Shown in pieces: positions 14,101-21,582 of a stretch of DNA of 64,000 bases. Below the pieces are notes generated by a model. It saw nothing but the letters and a program-made list of their open reading frames with translations. It did not search any database and was not told the origin of the DNA. Position 1 is the first letter of the stretch. Each line of letters opens with the position of its first letter. This DNA is from Gemmatimonas sp. Its GTDB lineage: Bacteria > Gemmatimonadota > Gemmatimonadetes > Gemmatimonadales > Gemmatimonadaceae. Position numbers and translations under genes: made by a program. The DNA lies in the NCBI RefSeq assembly GCF_027531815.1, contig NZ_JAPZSK010000006.1:1-64000 (forward strand), given 5' to 3'.

Positions 14101-17046
14101 TCAGGCCTTGGAGGCCTGATCGAGCGTACGCGCTACTTCCTCCGTGCGGTAGCACTCGAAGACGTCCCCGATCTTGAGATCGTTGAAGTTCTCGATGCCG
14201 ATACCGCACTCGTAGCCTTCCTTGACCTCGTTGACGTCATCCTTGAAGCGACGCAGCGAGGCGATGGCCCCGTCGTAGATCTCGATCCCATCGCGGATGA
14301 CGCGGATGCGCCCCTTCCGGTTGATGATGCCGGAGCGCACGATGGTACCGGCGATGGTTCCGACGCGGGCCACCTTGAACGTTTCACGGACTTCCGCTTC
14401 GCCGAAGACCACTTCCCGCTCTTCCGGACGCAGCATCCCCTCGAGCGCCGCCTTCACATCGGCGACTGCCTCGTAGATGATGCGATACAGCTTGATGTCG
14501 ACGCCCTCGCGTTCCGCCGCGTTGCGTGCGTTGTTGTCCGGTCGCACATGGAAGCCGATGATGATCGCGCCGGCCGCCTTCGCGAGCAGGATGTCGCTTT
14601 CGGCAATGGCACCGACCGCGCGGTGGATGATCTCCACCTGGACTTCGCTGTTGGACAGCTGCTGCAGCGCGTCGGCGAGGGCTTCCGCCGGCCCGCCCTG
14701 ATCGGCCTTGATGACGAGTCGCAGCTGGCGCTTCTGGCCAGCCGAGGCCTGGGACATGAAATCCTCGAGCGAGACCACGCCGCGCGTGGTGCGACGGCTC
14801 TTGGCCTCCCGATCGAGCCGCTCACGACGCTGCGCGATTTCGCGCGCAGCGGTGGCATCATCGACCACCAGCAGCTGATCGCCCGCCATAGGCACGCCGG
14901 TGAGACCGAGGATCTGCACCGGAATGGCCGGCCCGGCCTGCTTCACCTGCTTGCCACGCTCGTCGAGCATGGCGCGCACGCGGCCGGAGTGGATACCACA
15001 GATGTAGTCGTCACCCACCTTGAGCGTGCCATTCTGCACGAGCACCGTAGCCACGGGGCCCTTGCCCTGGTCGAGCTGGGCTTCCACCACGGAGCCGACG
15101 GCGCGGCGGTTGGGGTTGGCCTTGAGCTCGAGGATATCGGCCTGCAACAGGATCTGATCGAGCAGCTCGGCCACGCCGGTGCCCTTCTTGGCCGAGATTT
15201 CCGAGTGCAGGACCGTGCCGCCGAAGTCTTCGAGCACGACTTCGTGCTGCAGGAGGTCCTGCTTCACCTTCTCGATGTTCGCCGTCGGCAGATCGACCTT
15301 GTTGATGGCGATGATGATGGGAACACCGGCACTCTTGGCGTGCGAGATCGCTTCGATGGTCTGCGGCATCACCTGGTCGTCGGCGGCAATGACGATGACG
15401 ACGATGTCGGTGACCTGCGCACCGCGGGCACGCATCGCGGTGAACGCTTCGTGACCCGGGGTATCGAGGAAGGTGATGAGGCGCTTGCCGGCGACCTCCA
15501 CGTGGTAGGCACCGATGTGCTGCGTGATGCCACCGGCCTCGCCGGCCACGACGTTCGCCTTGCGGATGTAGTCGAGCAGCGACGTCTTGCCGTGATCGAC
15601 GTGCCCCATGATGGTGACGACCGGCGGGCGCGGGCGCAGATCTTCCTCGCGGTCCTCTTCACCCTGATCGGGGACATCGGCGGCATAGTCGGATTCCTTG
15701 ACGGCCTGGAAGCCGAACTCGCCAGCGATGAGCTCGATCTGGTCGAAGTCGAGCCGCTGGTTGATGGTAACCATCAGCCCGAGCGACTTGAAAGCGAAGC
15801 CTACGATCTGCGTGGCGGAAATGCCCAGAATCTGCGCGAGTTCGGAGACGGTGATGAACTCGTTGACGCGCACCGTCTTGCGCTCGCGCTCCGCCGCCGC
15901 CTGCCGCTGTTCCTCGGCCTCGGCGCGCATTTCGGCACCGAAGCGACGCCCCGGGCGACCGCGCGTGGGCGCGCCGCGCATGGCGGTCATGGTCTTGGTG
16001 ATGTTGGCCGACACGGCTTCCTGGTCGACCGCCCCGCGCTTGCCCTTCTTCCCGCGACGCTGCTGGTTCTGGCCGCCGGGCTGGGCCATTCCGCCCCCCT
16101 GCTGCTGCCCACCGGTACCGGTTCCGGCGTGCTGGCCGCCGCCATGCTGCGGCGGTGCCCCGCCGGGACGACGATCGTCGCGGCGCTGGCCCTGCGACAG
16201 TCCACCGCCAGGCGCGGCGGAGGCAATGGGACGCGCTGAGCCGAAGTTGGGGCTGGCGCTGGCCACCGGCCGCGGACGCGGCGCACCGGGCACGACCGGC
16301 CGCGGGCGCGGGCGGTCTGCCGGCAGACTCGGAGCCGCTGGGGCGGCCGGTGCGGCGGCGACCGGCTCTGCGCCGGTAGCCGGAACCGGCGCCGCAGCCG
16401 GTGCGGCCGGTGTCACCGCTGCCGCCGGCGGCAGCTCGGGGGCGACGAACGTGACCGGCGCGGGCGTCTCCAGCTTCCGCGGAGGTTCCGCCGGCGCGGG
16501 CACGGCAGCGGGCAGATCCGTGACGGGCGGCCGCGTGTCCGCCGCCGGCGGGGCGGATGCGACGGGCGCCGGTACCGCGGCAGGCGCCGCCGGTGTCTCT
16601 GCGGGCGCGGCGGCTTCGACGGCCGGACGCTCCGGCTTCCGCGCCGGGACGGGCACGATGTCGGGAGTCGGCTCCGGCGCGGCCGGCGCGGCGGCCGCGG
16701 CAGTTTCGGCGGCCGCGACCTCGGGCTCGTGGTGCTCGGCAACGTCGGCGGCGCGACGCCGGCGCACGGCCGGCGTGGGCGACGCGGCTTCGAGCTCGGG
16801 AGTGGCCACCGCTTCTGCCGCCGTCGTGCGACGACGGCGCGGAGCGGCCGCAGGCGCCGGCTGCGCCTTTTCGGCGCGCAGCCGCTTCTCGCGCTCCCAG
16901 CGGGCGCGAATTCGCGAGACCTGATCATCGGTCAGCAGCGACAAATGGCTGCGAACCGGGACATCCATCTGGCGCAGCAGTGCGATCACCTCGTCCGCCG
17001 AGATGCCGAACTCACCCGCCATGTCATGCACACGAAGCTTGGTCAA
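14101..17046 (-). CDS. infB: translation initiation factor IF-2
   Basis: GTPase that brings fMet-tRNA to the 30S subunit. The 981 residues start with the IF2 N-terminal fold MTKLRVHDMAGEFGISADEVIALLRQM, then a roughly 330-residue low-complexity linker rich in Ala, Pro, Val and Arg/Gly/Gln. The G domain follows, with G1 GHVDHGKT, G3 DTPGHEAF and G4 NKVD, and then domains II-IV ending in YECGIGIENFNDLKIGDVFE. The linker is rich in PAAP-type repeats, so its length is likely to vary between strains. It starts 9 bases after ylxQ. Confidence 0.98.
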   Translation of the reverse strand: MTKLRVHDMAGEFGISADEVIALLRQMDVPVRSHLSLLTDDQVSRIRARWEREKRLRAEKAQPAPAAAPRRRRTTAAEAVATPELEAASPTPAVRRRRAADVAEHHEPEVAAAETAAAAAPAAPEPTPDIVPVPARKPERPAVEAAAPAETPAAPAAVPAPVASAPPAADTRPPVTDLPAAVPAPAEPPRKLETPAPVTFVAPELPPAAAVTPAAPAAAPVPATGAEPVAAAPAAPAAPSLPADRPRPRPVVPGAPRPRPVASASPNFGSARPIASAAPGGGLSQGQRRDDRRPGGAPPQHGGGQHAGTGTGGQQQGGGMAQPGGQNQQRRGKKGKRGAVDQEAVSANITKTMTAMRGAPTRGRPGRRFGAEMRAEAEEQRQAAAERERKTVRVNEFITVSELAQILGISATQIVGFAFKSLGLMVTINQRLDFDQIELIAGEFGFQAVKESDYAADVPDQGEEDREEDLRPRPPVVTIMGHVDHGKTSLLDYIRKANVVAGEAGGITQHIGAYHVEVAGKRLITFLDTPGHEAFTAMRARGAQVTDIVVIVIAADDQVMPQTIEAISHAKSAGVPIIIAINKVDLPTANIEKVKQDLLQHEVVLEDFGGTVLHSEISAKKGTGVAELLDQILLQADILELKANPNRRAVGSVVEAQLDQGKGPVATVLVQNGTLKVGDDYICGIHSGRVRAMLDERGKQVKQAGPAIPVQILGLTGVPMAGDQLLVVDDATAAREIAQRRERLDREAKSRRTTRGVVSLEDFMSQASAGQKRQLRLVIKADQGGPAEALADALQQLSNSEVQVEIIHRAVGAIAESDILLAKAAGAIIIGFHVRPDNNARNAAEREGVDIKLYRIIYEAVADVKAALEGMLRPEEREVVFGEAEVRETFKVARVGTIAGTIVRSGIINRKGRIRVIRDGIEIYDGAIASLRRFKDDVNEVKEGYECGIGIENFNDLKIGDVFECYRTEEVARTLDQASKA

Positions 17047-17055
17047 CCCGTCCTC

Positions 17056-17436
17056 CTACCGCGAAACGCGCGTCGCGTCGCCTGCCGGGGCTGCCCCGGC
17101 TACGGCGCCACGGATTCCGCGCGCCAGCGCCTGATCTACGATCCCTATGGCCGCCGTGATGTCCCGTCCCACAGCGCCTCCCAACTCGGCCGCACTCGGC
17201 CACTCCACCATCTCCACCCCCCGGGCCCGGAGGACCGGCACCACCTTGTCGAGCGAGTGCCGGGACACGTCGCGCGCCACCAGCACCAATTGCACACTGC
17301 CCTTCTGCGCGGCGAGCCGCACCTGCTCTGCGCCCACCACCACCAACCGGCCTCTCGCCCCCAGACCGACCAGCCCGAGCACCTTGCGGCGCACCGTGTC
17401 GGTCAGCGGGGACGACCCGCCGTCTGCTTCACTCAC
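17056..17436 (-). CDS. ylxQ: YlxQ-like L7Ae/L30e family RNA-binding protein
   Basis: A 126-residue protein with the L7Ae fold pattern: KVLGLVGLGARGRLVVVGAEQVRLAAQKGSVQLVLVARDVS, where the Gly-rich first strand and the later acidic strand match ribosomal L7Ae-like proteins that bind kink-turn RNA. Its place between nusA (ATGA overlap) and infB is that of ylxQ in many bacteria. The usual YlxR partner (GRGAYV motif) is absent between nusA and this gene. The precise role in ribosome or RNA metabolism is not settled. Confidence 0.8.
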   Translation of the reverse strand: MSEADGGSSPLTDTVRRKVLGLVGLGARGRLVVVGAEQVRLAAQKGSVQLVLVARDVSRHSLDKVVPVLRARGVEMVEWPSAAELGGAVGRDITAAIGIVDQALARGIRGAVAGAAPAGDATRVSR

Positions 17437-18743
17437 GCCCCGCGACCGTCCTCGTCATCCTCGGTGGTGAGCTCGTCGATGATGGCCATGATGCGATCGG
17501 CCTCCTCGGGCGCAATGCCGGGCAATCGCAGCAGATCATCCCGATCGAGATCGAGAATGTCGTTGAGGGTACGGTATCCCGCTTCGGCCAGCACCGCGAC
17601 CGTCGCCGTTTCGAGCCCCTCGATTTCGTTGAGCGGCACGTCGGCTTCGGCGTCATCCGGCAGCGGCGCGAAGAGGGGCGATTCCCCACCCTTTTCCATC
17701 CACTCCCGGCTCGAGTACAGGTCGATCTTCCACCCCGTCAGTTCGGACGCCAGTCGCACGTTCTGCCCGTTGCGACCGATCGCCAGCGACAGTTGGTCCT
17801 CGTCGACGACGGCCTGAATGGTGCGCGACACCGCATCGCTGAACACCCGCGCCACCCGCGCCGGCGCCAGCGCCAGCTTGGCGAACCGTTCCGGATCGGG
17901 AGACCACGGCACGATGTCGATGCGCTCGCCGCCCAGTTCATTCACGACCGCCTGCACCCGAGCGCCCTTGAGGCCCACGCACGCACCGACCGGATCGACC
18001 GCTTCATCACGCGACGTGACCGCGATCTTGGTGCGGCTACCGACTTCGCGCGCCGCGGCCTTGATCTCCACGATCCCCTGCTGGATCTCCGGCACCTCGA
18101 GCTTGAACAGCGCCTGCACGAAGAGGGCGTCGGAGCGGCTCAGAATGAGGCGCGGCCCCTTGGGCGTATCCTCGACCCGCTTGAGCACGGCGCGCACCGG
18201 CTCGCCCTGATGGTAGTGCTCCCGATGATTCTGCTCACGGTACGGGATGATGGCCTCGGCCTCCCGGAACTTGTTGAGCATAACCACCAGTTTGCCGCGC
18301 TCGATCTGCTGGACCTCACCCGACAGCAGGTCACCCACCCGCCCCGCGAACTCGTCGCGGATACGCGTGCGCTCGCCTTCGCGAACCCGCTGGATGATGC
18401 GCTGCTTCGCCGCCTGAACCGCCGTGCGCCCGAACTCCATGAAATCGACCGGGATTTCCATGACGTCGCCGACCTGGAATTCCGGATCCATGAAGCGTGC
18501 TTCCTCGACGGTCACCTCGCGCGATTCGTCGGTGACCTCGTCCACGACCGTCTTGAGCAGCACGATGCGAATGGCGCCCTTGGCTTCGTCGATCTCGATT
18601 TCCGCCTGGACGTTGGCCCCGTGCTTCTTGGCCAGGGCGGCAAGAATGCCGTCCTGGAGAAGCCCGTGCAGCTCCTCGCGCGTGATCTGCTTGAGGTTCG
18701 ACAGCTCACGTAACGCTGTGAGAATTTCCGCCGATCCGGCCAT
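17433..18743 (-). CDS. nusA: transcription termination/antitermination factor NusA
   Basis: RNA polymerase-binding factor that modulates pausing, termination and antitermination. The 436 residues comprise the N-terminal domain (to about 130), an S1 domain (GDLLSGEVQQIERGKLVVMLN), two KH domains (DPVGACVGLKGARVQAVVNELGGERIDIV and the SLAIGRNGQNVRLASELTGWKIDL motif) and a C-terminal helix-hairpin-helix region (LPGIAPEEADRIMAIIDEL) with an acidic tail. It lies 9 bases after rimP. The leader upstream of rimP has an attenuator-like terminator, and NusA autoregulation is known in other bacteria. Confidence 0.97.
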   Translation of the reverse strand: MAGSAEILTALRELSNLKQITREELHGLLQDGILAALAKKHGANVQAEIEIDEAKGAIRIVLLKTVVDEVTDESREVTVEEARFMDPEFQVGDVMEIPVDFMEFGRTAVQAAKQRIIQRVREGERTRIRDEFAGRVGDLLSGEVQQIERGKLVVMLNKFREAEAIIPYREQNHREHYHQGEPVRAVLKRVEDTPKGPRLILSRSDALFVQALFKLEVPEIQQGIVEIKAAAREVGSRTKIAVTSRDEAVDPVGACVGLKGARVQAVVNELGGERIDIVPWSPDPERFAKLALAPARVARVFSDAVSRTIQAVVDEDQLSLAIGRNGQNVRLASELTGWKIDLYSSREWMEKGGESPLFAPLPDDAEADVPLNEIEGLETATVAVLAEAGYRTLNDILDLDRDDLLRLPGIAPEEADRIMAIIDELTTEDDEDGRGA

Positions 18744-18752
18744 CCGTGTCCC

Positions 18753-19220
18753 CTATCGTTTCCAGTGAAACGCCAATCGCGCCTGCGTGATCTCACGAAG
18801 CGGCACCTGCACCTCCCGCCCCTTCGGATCCCGCACCAACGCGACCTCAGCGCCTGCCTCGCCATCGAGCGCGAGAATCTCGACTTCCTGTTTTCCACCT
18901 GCCAGCAAAGGGCTCGTCACCGTGGCCCGACGTCCAATAAACCGGCGCCATTCCGCGGCGTTCCGGAGCGGACGATCCGCACCCGGAGACGACACCTCCA
19001 ACACATACTGCTCGGCAACCAGCGCGTCGGCCTCCAGCCGCGCTTCGAGAGCCCGGGACGCCCGCGCGCAGTCGTCGATCGTGATCTTTTCGCCGTCTCG
19101 CCGATCGATCCGGATTTCCAGCACGGGACGGGCTTTGGACCCACCCCGCCGTAGCTCGACCAGGTCGAAGCCCAACGTGTCAAGTTCTTGCGCGACAATG
19201 GGTTCGATGGACTCGCTCAC
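18753..19220 (-). CDS. rimP: ribosome maturation factor RimP
   Basis: A 155-residue protein needed for 30S maturation. LGFDLVELRRGGSKARPVLEIRIDR, the VSSPGADRPLRNAAEWRRFIGR motif and a C-terminal Sm-like domain ending LREITQARLAFHWKR match the family. The GTG start at 19220 is supported by GGAGGT about 8 bases upstream and by family length; an open frame continues upstream to 19310 but crosses the terminator-bearing leader. It is the first gene of the rimP-nusA-ylxQ-infB-rbfA-truB-ribF operon. Confidence 0.93.
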   Translation of the reverse strand: MSESIEPIVAQELDTLGFDLVELRRGGSKARPVLEIRIDRRDGEKITIDDCARASRALEARLEADALVAEQYVLEVSSPGADRPLRNAAEWRRFIGRRATVTSPLLAGGKQEVEILALDGEAGAEVALVRDPKGREVQVPLREITQARLAFHWKR

Positions 19221-19285
19221 CTGCTGACCTCCGGCCGACCACGGACCGCTTCCTGCACCATGAACGTGCGAAACCCCCAGAGAAC

Positions 19286-19314
19286 AAAAAAGTGTGGGGG
19301 CCATCCCCACACTT
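19286..19314 (-). terminator. intrinsic terminator in the rimP leader (putative attenuator)
   Basis: The minus strand carries a 10-bp stem AAGTGTGGGG/CCCCACACTT with a 5-base loop, followed by a run of six T. It lies downstream of pgeF and also downstream of the rimP promoter, between that promoter and the rimP start. It therefore both ends the murA-pgeF transcript and can attenuate the rimP-nusA operon. Confidence 0.85.
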
Positions 19315-19368
19315 CTTCCGCCCGCGGTGAGCGAGCGATATCACGAAGAGGTTACGTCTCAGACTCGC

Positions 19369-19397
19369 AAGCTAGGGACCGGGTATGGCCGGGTCAA
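19369..19397 (-). promoter_or_regulatory. sigma70-type promoter of the rimP-nusA operon
   Basis: On the minus strand TTGACC, a 17-base spacer and TAGCTT. The predicted transcript start near 19362 gives a leader of about 140 bases containing a complete intrinsic terminator before the rimP GTG. Confidence 0.7.
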
Positions 19398-19462: not shown

Positions 19463-20170
19463 TCATGTCAGGGCGATGATGCCCAGCATGCGGCCCGCGT
19501 CGCCGCTGCGGTGCGAGAAGTAGCGCGCAGTGTCACAGCGCGAACACCCTGATGACGTTCGTACCGTGGCGACACGCCGTCGAGCCGCCTGTCTAGCGAG
19601 GGCCGCTCGGACATCGAGCAGCCCCTTGCCGTGATGCGCCCCACCGTGAACGGCCCGCAGCACCTCAGGCCCCACCTCGTAGCACTGGCCACAAATGGAC
19701 GGGCCCAGCCAGATCGTGCATTCCTCTTCAGGGAAGCCGAGCGACGCGAGCGCATCGAGCCCCCGGTCGAGGATCTCAGCGGCGGTCCCGCGCCATCCGG
19801 CATGCAGGGCGGCAATCGCACCCCCCGGGTGCCACAGCAGAACCGGTGTGCAGTCGGCTACCGTGACCGCGAGCGCGGTGCCGCGAGCAACGCTCACGTG
19901 ACCGTCCGCTTCCATCCCACGAAGCCACCCGCGCCACCCGGCACCGTGCGTCATCACCTCGGCACCGTGCACCTGATGTGCCGTGGCCAGCCGCTCCACC
20001 CCGAGGTCGCCGAGGTCCGCCAGCAGCGCCCCCCACCGCCCCATGACGGCGCCGACCGGTTCGTCGCTCCCCAGGCCGAACGACCCGTTGGCCTTGGTCG
20101 TGGTCCACCCGCGGATACCAGGTGGCAACCCGTCGACCGGCTCGGCGAGATGAAGGGTGCGCGGCGTCAT
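19463..20170 (-). CDS. pgeF: PgeF/YfiH laccase-domain protein (peptidoglycan editing or purine nucleoside phosphorylase family)
   Basis: A 235-residue CNF1/YfiH-fold protein. The metal-site residues are all present: HQVHGAEV, VTVADCTPVLLWHP, ALHAGWRGTAAEI and GPSICGQCYEVGPEV. E. coli YfiH hydrolyses wrongly made UDP-MurNAc-L-Ser, and other members show purine nucleoside phosphorylase activity. Sitting 17 bases after murA supports a peptidoglycan-precursor role here. The C-terminal SRCDTARYFSHRSGDAGRMLGII stretch is also family-typical. Confidence 0.92.
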   Translation of the reverse strand: MTPRTLHLAEPVDGLPPGIRGWTTTKANGSFGLGSDEPVGAVMGRWGALLADLGDLGVERLATAHQVHGAEVMTHGAGWRGWLRGMEADGHVSVARGTALAVTVADCTPVLLWHPGGAIAALHAGWRGTAAEILDRGLDALASLGFPEEECTIWLGPSICGQCYEVGPEVLRAVHGGAHHGKGLLDVRAALARQAARRRVATVRTSSGCSRCDTARYFSHRSGDAGRMLGIIALT

Positions 20171-20187: not shown

Positions 20188-21483
20188 TCAGTGGGCGCTC
20201 AACTCGACCCGCCTGATGCGGGCACCCAAGGCGCCGAGCCGCGACTCGATGCGCTCATACCCACGCTCGATCTGCTGTGCGTTGTTGATGATGCTCGTCC
20301 CATCGGCACAGAGCGCGGCCAGCAGCATCGCCATGCCCGCGCGGATGTCGGGCGATTCCACGGTTCCCCCGCGCAGTTGCGTGGGCCCCGACACGATGGC
20401 GCGGTGCGGATCACACAGGACGATGCGCGCGCCCATGCCCACCAGCTTGTCGGTGAAGTAGAGACGCGATTCGAACATCTTCTCGTGGAAGAGGATCATG
20501 CCTTCGCACTGGGTGGCGGCGACGATGGCGATGGACATGGTGTCCGCCGGGAACGCCGGCCACGGCTGGTCCTCGAGCTTGGCCACATGTCCGCCCAGAT
20601 CCGTCTGCATGCGTCGCGACTGTTCCGCCGGGACGAGGAGATCGTCGCCCTCCACCACGCAGCTGATGCCGAGCTTCTCGAATCCCAGCAAGGTGCTCCG
20701 CAGATGCTCCACCCCTGCCCGCTCGATGCGCAGCGCGGACCGTGTGACCGCCGCGAGCCCGATGAATGACCCCACTTCGATGTGATCCGGGCCGATCTCG
20801 TGCGTCGCGCCGCCCAGCGGTAGCCCCCCCTCGATGGTATACACGTTGGACCCGATCCCCTCGATGCGCGCGCCCAGCGCCACGAGGAAGCGTGCCAGAT
20901 CCTGCACGTGCGGTTCACTCGCGGCATTACGCAACGTCGTGCGCCCCCGGGCGGCGACGGCCGCCACCAGCGCGTTTTCCGTGGCGGTGACGCTGGGCTC
21001 GTCGAGAAAGACGTCGGCGCCGATCAGCCCGGCGGTGTCGAAACGGAAGCGCGCCCCGAGCTCATACGTGGCCCCCAGCGCCTGCAGCACATGGAAGTGC
21101 GTGTCGAGACGCCGGCGGCCAATGACATCGCCACCCGGTGGCGACAGCGTGACGGTACCGCAGCGCGCCAGCAGCGGCGCCGCAAGCAGGATGGACGCCC
21201 GAATGCGGGCACACATGGCGGGGTCGAGATCGGCCGCGCGCACCGTCTGGGCATGGATGCGGAGGGAGTTCTCGCCGGTCCATTCGCAATCGGCACCGGT
21301 GGTACGAATGAGCTCCACCAGCGTTTCGATGTCGCGGATGCGCGGCACGTTATGCAACTGTACCGGCTGGTCGGTAATGAGTGCCGCCGCGACGATCGGG
21401 AGCGCGGCATTCTTGTTGCCCGCGGGGCGAATCGACCCCTGGAGGCGCTGACCACCTTCAACGATGTATTGGACCGCAGACAT
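20188..21483 (-). CDS. murA: UDP-N-acetylglucosamine 1-carboxyvinyltransferase with Asp active site
   Basis: First committed step of peptidoglycan synthesis: it transfers enolpyruvate from PEP to UDP-GlcNAc. The protein is 431 residues from the ATG at 21483, where the family motif GGQRLQGSIRPAGNKNAALPIVAAAL begins at residue 10. The catalytic loop reads LSPPGGDVIGRRRLD, so position 119 is Asp (codon 21127-21129) where most MurA proteins have the fosfomycin-alkylated Cys. Enzymes with this Asp are active and fosfomycin-insensitive in other bacteria. pgeF follows after 17 bases. Confidence 0.96.
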   Translation of the reverse strand: MSAVQYIVEGGQRLQGSIRPAGNKNAALPIVAAALITDQPVQLHNVPRIRDIETLVELIRTTGADCEWTGENSLRIHAQTVRAADLDPAMCARIRASILLAAPLLARCGTVTLSPPGGDVIGRRRLDTHFHVLQALGATYELGARFRFDTAGLIGADVFLDEPSVTATENALVAAVAARGRTTLRNAASEPHVQDLARFLVALGARIEGIGSNVYTIEGGLPLGGATHEIGPDHIEVGSFIGLAAVTRSALRIERAGVEHLRSTLLGFEKLGISCVVEGDDLLVPAEQSRRMQTDLGGHVAKLEDQPWPAFPADTMSIAIVAATQCEGMILFHEKMFESRLYFTDKLVGMGARIVLCDPHRAIVSGPTQLRGGTVESPDIRAGMAMLLAALCADGTSIINNAQQIERGYERIESRLGALGARIRRVELSAH

Positions 21484-21582
21484 GAGCCGGGAGCGGGACG
21501 CGGGAATTCGGGGGACGGGAAGCTTCAAGGTTAGTCACGCGCCGCCATGGACACGAGCCTCTGTAGCCTTTAGATCAGAAGC

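Follow-up and report, generated by a model that had tools for sequence, protein, structure and literature searches.

A conserved promoter-terminator leader upstream of nusA in Gemmatimonadota, a probable NusA-feedback attenuator

The 64-kb window (the whole stretch of 64,000 nucleotides analysed here) contains, on its minus strand and in this order, murA, pgeF, a gap of 242 bases, rimP, nusA, an L7Ae-family gene and infB. murA (20188-21528) precedes pgeF (19463-20170; Pfam Cu-oxidase_4), which is the last gene of the murA-pgeF unit and lies upstream of the leader. The first gene of the operon behind the gap is rimP (18753-19220; RimP_N and C-terminal domain), with a GTG start at 19220 and the RBS GGAGGT at 19232-19227. 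It is followed by nusA (17433-18743), presumed to be both the regulator and a regulated gene, whose product contains NusA_N, S1 and KH domains, the S1 match being weak (22.8 bits compared to a Pfam cut-off of 22). The L7Ae-family gene (17056-17436; Ribosomal_L7Ae) and infB, encoding translation initiation factor IF-2 (14101-17046; IF-2, IF2_N and GTP_EFTU), complete the operon. The rimP frame stays open upstream of its start over 19310-19220, as far as a GTG (19310) within the terminator described below, so that automatic annotation may set the rimP start too early and thereby hide the leader.

A promoter, an intrinsic terminator and rimP lie in a row on the minus strand (19397-19220), as described in the initial annotation. 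The promoter (19369-19397) consists of TTGACC (19397-19392), a 17-base spacer and TAGCTT (19374-19369), scores 8/12 and is the best promoter match between pgeF and the hairpin; the transcription start predicted from it lies at approximately 19362. No second promoter-like site was found between hairpin and rimP, where the best score is 6/12, in agreement with the initial annotation. The terminator (19286-19318), assigned from its sequence, the MFE fold of the leader, conservation and covariation, reads GAAGAAGTGTGGGG-ATGGC-CCCCACACTTTTTT, with the core GTGGGG-ATGGC-CCCCAC and a T6 tract, and forms a stem of 14 bp in the MFE fold (19318-19286). The stem begins approximately 44 nt and the U-tract finishes approximately 76 nt after the predicted start; the distance of 50 to 75 bases estimated previously was right to a few bases. 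From predicted start to the end of the U-tract, the leader comprises about 77 nt, and its fold consists of the terminator and a small GC hairpin; 65 nt separate the end of the T-tract from the rimP start.

A stock terminator scanner applied to the window did not list the rimP-leader hairpin, a miss that may be explained by the stem continuing into the T-tract. With our own scan, three terminators of such quality were found in the 64-kb window, compared to zero to three (mean about one) in first-order resampled sequence, where those with at least six GC pairs averaged 0.4. The anatomy of the hairpin by itself is only moderately unusual; it is conservation that settles the matter against chance. 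From 111 loci (the window and its relatives), 87 distinct comparable upstream regions of Gemmatimonadaceae were obtained. Since all of them (87/87) contain the hairpin, with the 5' arm UGUGGGG (CGUGGGG once) and a T-rich tract behind it, a chance origin is untenable. Of 297 genomes of the phylum, 142 have the exact pattern together with the T-tract; for the family of the window, the count taken from the table is 93 out of 103. It occurs approximately once per genome and almost exclusively at the nusA operon; the few additional motif matches fetched are located elsewhere. A gene set sharing the hairpin was considered and rejected: other copies of GTGGGG...CCCCAC, checked at four places in the genome, have no T-tracts and lie inside open reading frames.

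A wider sample comprised the DNA upstream of nusA from 60 genomes at family, order and class level, chosen mostly for absence of the exact pattern, and the hairpin was present in 59 of them. A sequence-unconstrained hairpin scan returned a terminator in 52/60; for two of these (L197 and L205) it listed another hairpin, and the correct one was identified by eye. Seven of the other eight genomes also have the hairpin, either with an extended loop or a G-T pair or, for G104 alone, at an operon with an unrecognised rimP. The long open frame around nusA in the latter genome was inspected for a fusion, and none was evident. Of the genomes sampled, G082 (L215/L234) alone has no such hairpin ahead of rimP. 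The NusA of G082 is among the more divergent ones (58% identity). At two loci, L197 (G189) and L233 (G104), the rimP-leader hairpin is closely preceded by an extra terminator-like hairpin with a T-tract, an arrangement reminiscent of the E. coli leader with its two tandem terminators.

The promoter was scored in 110 leaders, and nearly all of them have TTGAC-N17-TAnnnT ahead of the hairpin, with a mean score of 8.5/12 compared to 5.6 in resampled sequence; a few class-level leaders scored at chance level. The distance from the end of the -10 element to the stem core is usually 33-45 nt, and 57-60 nt in the genus of the window; among the 87 family regions, most have the promoter at an almost constant distance from the hairpin. 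As judged from these sequences, the promoter-hairpin pair is kept throughout the phylum Gemmatimonadota. In 68 of the 87 family members, the T-tract is followed by the start codon within 40 nt (median about 25), which leaves little or no space for a second promoter after the T-tract. This distance of only about 25 nt in most relatives, as well as the 5' hairpin P1 present in many leaders (see below), would also suit a non-terminating stability or translation element of the 5' UTR, composed of a protecting hairpin and a U-rich standby site. Such a function is very unlikely, since a GC stem with T6-T8 immediately behind it is the anatomy of an intrinsic terminator, found even where the hairpin is 90-205 nt away from nusA, and since the homologous leader of S. 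agalactiae terminates (PMC4448216).

Comparison of the leader across relatives, as proposed in the initial annotation, revealed covariation in the terminator stem. Its variants (GTGGGG/CCCCAC, GTGGGG/CCCCGC, GCGGGC/GCCCGC and GTCGGG/CCCGAC) show paired changes at three of the six core pairs and at both flanking pairs. Core position 2 is TA, TG or CG, positions 3 and 6 are GC or CG, and the flank is TA, AT or CG. MAFFT, which is blind to structure, aligned 48 hairpins with their arms out of register, so that pairs were counted from anchored arms; one covariation set was partly motif-selected, and the figures on core invariance are valid for the family set only. All 48 diverse hairpins tabulated (48/48) have a G-rich 5' arm and a C-rich 3' arm, a polarity for which the control is weak, with few other terminators in the fetched DNA. 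The core is GGGG/CCCC in 40 of them, as in the window, exactly GGGC/GCCC in 5 and CGGG/CCCG in 3. Because the 5' arm remains the G-rich one in spite of covariation at other positions, and because the hairpin follows nusA after loss of rimP and of the upstream genes (see below), it might be an old sequence-specific recognition element for NusA-RNA polymerase beyond a mere terminator, a tentative proposal which we regard as possible but doubtful.

Between promoter and terminator, a small GC-rich 5' hairpin, P1 (19319-19337, minus strand), was identified by folding of 97 leaders; its sequence is variable among relatives. Compared to dinucleotide-shuffled sequences, these leaders had lower folding energies (Wilcoxon p 5e-11, with a mean z of -1.2). 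P1 is strong in several genera of the Gemmatimonadaceae and absent in family f2. No competing antiterminator fold was found in the leaders, and forbidding the terminator costs a median of 20 kcal/mol. P1 was discarded as a candidate antiterminator, as there is no competition between P1 and the terminator in folding. In the 87 family sequences, column conservation revealed no block of conserved sequence ahead of the stem. At the T-tract, it revealed a conserved pyrimidine-rich extension (TTTTTTGTTCT, 19281-19291, minus strand). In Gemmatimonadaceae (the window and L002-L111), TTGTTCT, TTGTCCT or TTATTCT is conserved after the T-tract, past the usual length of a U-tract. That TTGTTCT is a boxA is unsupported: the likeness is loose, and a simple pattern scan of 16S rRNA leaders from three congeners did not show the motif. 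An Rfam search of the window gave no match at the gathering threshold and only weak hits at chance level.

The small ligand-binding leader considered in the initial annotation is not borne out by these results. A riboswitch or ribosomal-protein leader, in which an aptamer controls the terminator, would agree with the leader position; it is extremely improbable with only about 27-53 nt between the predicted start and the stem core, and with neither a conserved upstream sequence or aptamer nor an antiterminator or Rfam match. Without antiterminator and aptamer, a general termination factor would be the natural controller.

pgeF is located immediately upstream in the window and in most relatives, and the hairpin had also been proposed to end murA-pgeF. 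Such a role is possible in the window; it is not the main reason for the conservation, as the element persists elsewhere behind divergent or unrelated genes. The nearest upstream gene is divergent at L058 and L065, with the hairpin in place, while at L079 and L080 the upstream neighbours are an aroA/cmk-like pair and the hairpin still adjoins rimP. Furthermore, pgeF is 1.4-2.4 kb off at L032 and L081, where the position of the hairpin is unchanged. The hairpin is therefore not kept for pgeF. That it is chiefly the murA-pgeF terminator, overlapping the rimP leader by chance packing, is moreover opposed by the promoter upstream of the hairpin; this explanation is already largely refuted and has a very low probability.

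No RimP_N domain was detected in 11 genomes (G041, G053, G055, G139, G150, G177, G263, G085, G111, G118 and G131; 90-98% complete) belonging to seven genera and two families, with a search that was positive in the window's genome and in 10 bacterial controls. In these genomes (example loci L168, L174, L176, L134, L130, L131, L133, L147 and L166), nusA is the first gene after the leader, and the hairpin is positioned about 90-205 nt before nusA, with no space for rimP. Within genus g13, rimP is present in G057 and not in G041 and G053, and all three have promoter and hairpin. In genomes with no detectable rimP the hairpin still precedes nusA, so that the element follows nusA; the putative control element is, by its genomic distribution, linked to nusA and not to rimP or pgeF.

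A terminator of this kind, termed rimP-leader, was described by Naville and Gautheret (2010, PMC2965389): it has GGGc(...)gCCC arms and a T-stretch, lies 4-130 nt before rimP without an antiterminator, and NusA was proposed as its regulator. The Gemmatimonadota leader shares with it the single terminator hairpin with G-rich 5' and C-rich 3' arms, the T-stretch, the location in the 5' UTR of rimP-nusA-infB and the lack of an antiterminator, and the 65 nt of the window fall within the distance of 4-130 nt. Members of family f2 have the exact GGGC...GCCC core, whereas most Gemmatimonadota have GGGG...CCCC and thus agree with the described sequence in part. Further differences are the persistence of the hairpin after rimP loss and, in Gemmatimonadaceae, the variable 5' hairpin and the TTGTTCT-like extension of the T-tract. 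The gammaproteobacterial rimP leader of Rfam (RF01770, E. coli t1/t2) has the same operon position, but differs in its two tandem terminators, a possible antiterminator and, in E. coli, the upstream metY tRNA. In E. coli, hairpin 2 reads TGGGC...GCCC, with T7 behind it. No match to the RF01770 covariance model above the gathering cut-off was obtained in the window or the whole genome. The putative attenuator of the Gemmatimonadota joins the already described rimP-leader attenuators and is not a member of RF01770.

NusA autoregulation in other bacteria, mentioned in the initial annotation, is documented in the literature. For B. subtilis, it was reported to proceed through leader attenuation (reviewed in PMC12288461), and for E. 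coli, the leader terminators t1/t2 and NusA feedback were described (PMC6511841). In S. agalactiae, short and long transcripts arise from a single start, and NusA-stimulated termination in the leader was proposed from RNA-seq (PMC4448216). Compared by description, the B. subtilis system likewise has a terminator in the leader of the nusA operon; stimulation by NusA was shown experimentally there, while we infer it here. The short terminated RNA of S. agalactiae starts at the operon's own start and ends 31 nt after it, in contrast to the longer leader in the window (about 77 nt, U-tract included), which is read from the DNA sequence.

Taken with the conservation (87/87 and 59/60) and the linkage to nusA, an attenuator in the rimP-nusA-infB leader, as suggested in the initial annotation, is the best-supported reading, and feedback by NusA in the manner of the rimP-leader appears probable by analogy with these systems. 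RNA polymerase would start at approximately 19362, make the leader of about 77 nt and reach the GTGGGG/CCCCAC hairpin and U-tract (19318-19286). A fraction of the polymerases would terminate at the hairpin and free a short RNA, while the remainder would read rimP-nusA-infB. NusA, a stimulator of pausing and intrinsic termination, would increase the terminating fraction; abundant NusA would lower the output of its own operon and scarce NusA would permit more read-through. We infer that polymerases terminate here, that only some of them do so and that their proportion is set by NusA. Points against a NusA attenuator are the apparent strength of the terminator (14 bp, T6), behind which an essential operon needs considerable read-through, and the weak S1 match of NusA.

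The anatomy by itself requires no regulator, and in line with the lack of an antiterminator fold, the terminator could be a fixed attenuator that trims the output of the operon by a constant fraction with no sensing factor. This is unlikely, as the polarity of the G-rich 5' arm and the phylum-wide retention exceed the needs of trimming, for which a weaker promoter would suffice, and as reports of NusA feedback on such a leader exist for both B. subtilis (PMC12288461) and E. coli (PMC6511841). Another factor, e.g. cold-shock RNA chaperones, might relieve termination, so that the leader would sense cold or the RNA-folding state and not NusA; we consider this quite improbable. In its favour, Csp antitermination takes place at terminators of the nusA-operon region in E. 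coli. The E. coli operon, with its leader terminators, is also cold-induced, but the induction is ascribed mainly to promoters (PMC6511841), and there is no phylum-specific evidence for such a factor.

The question of the control target had stayed open while feedback by RimP was an alternative to feedback by NusA. The natural loss of rimP is a clean argument for nusA as this target, and the evidence from promoter, covariation and linkage would extend the nusA-operon attenuator to the phylum Gemmatimonadota.
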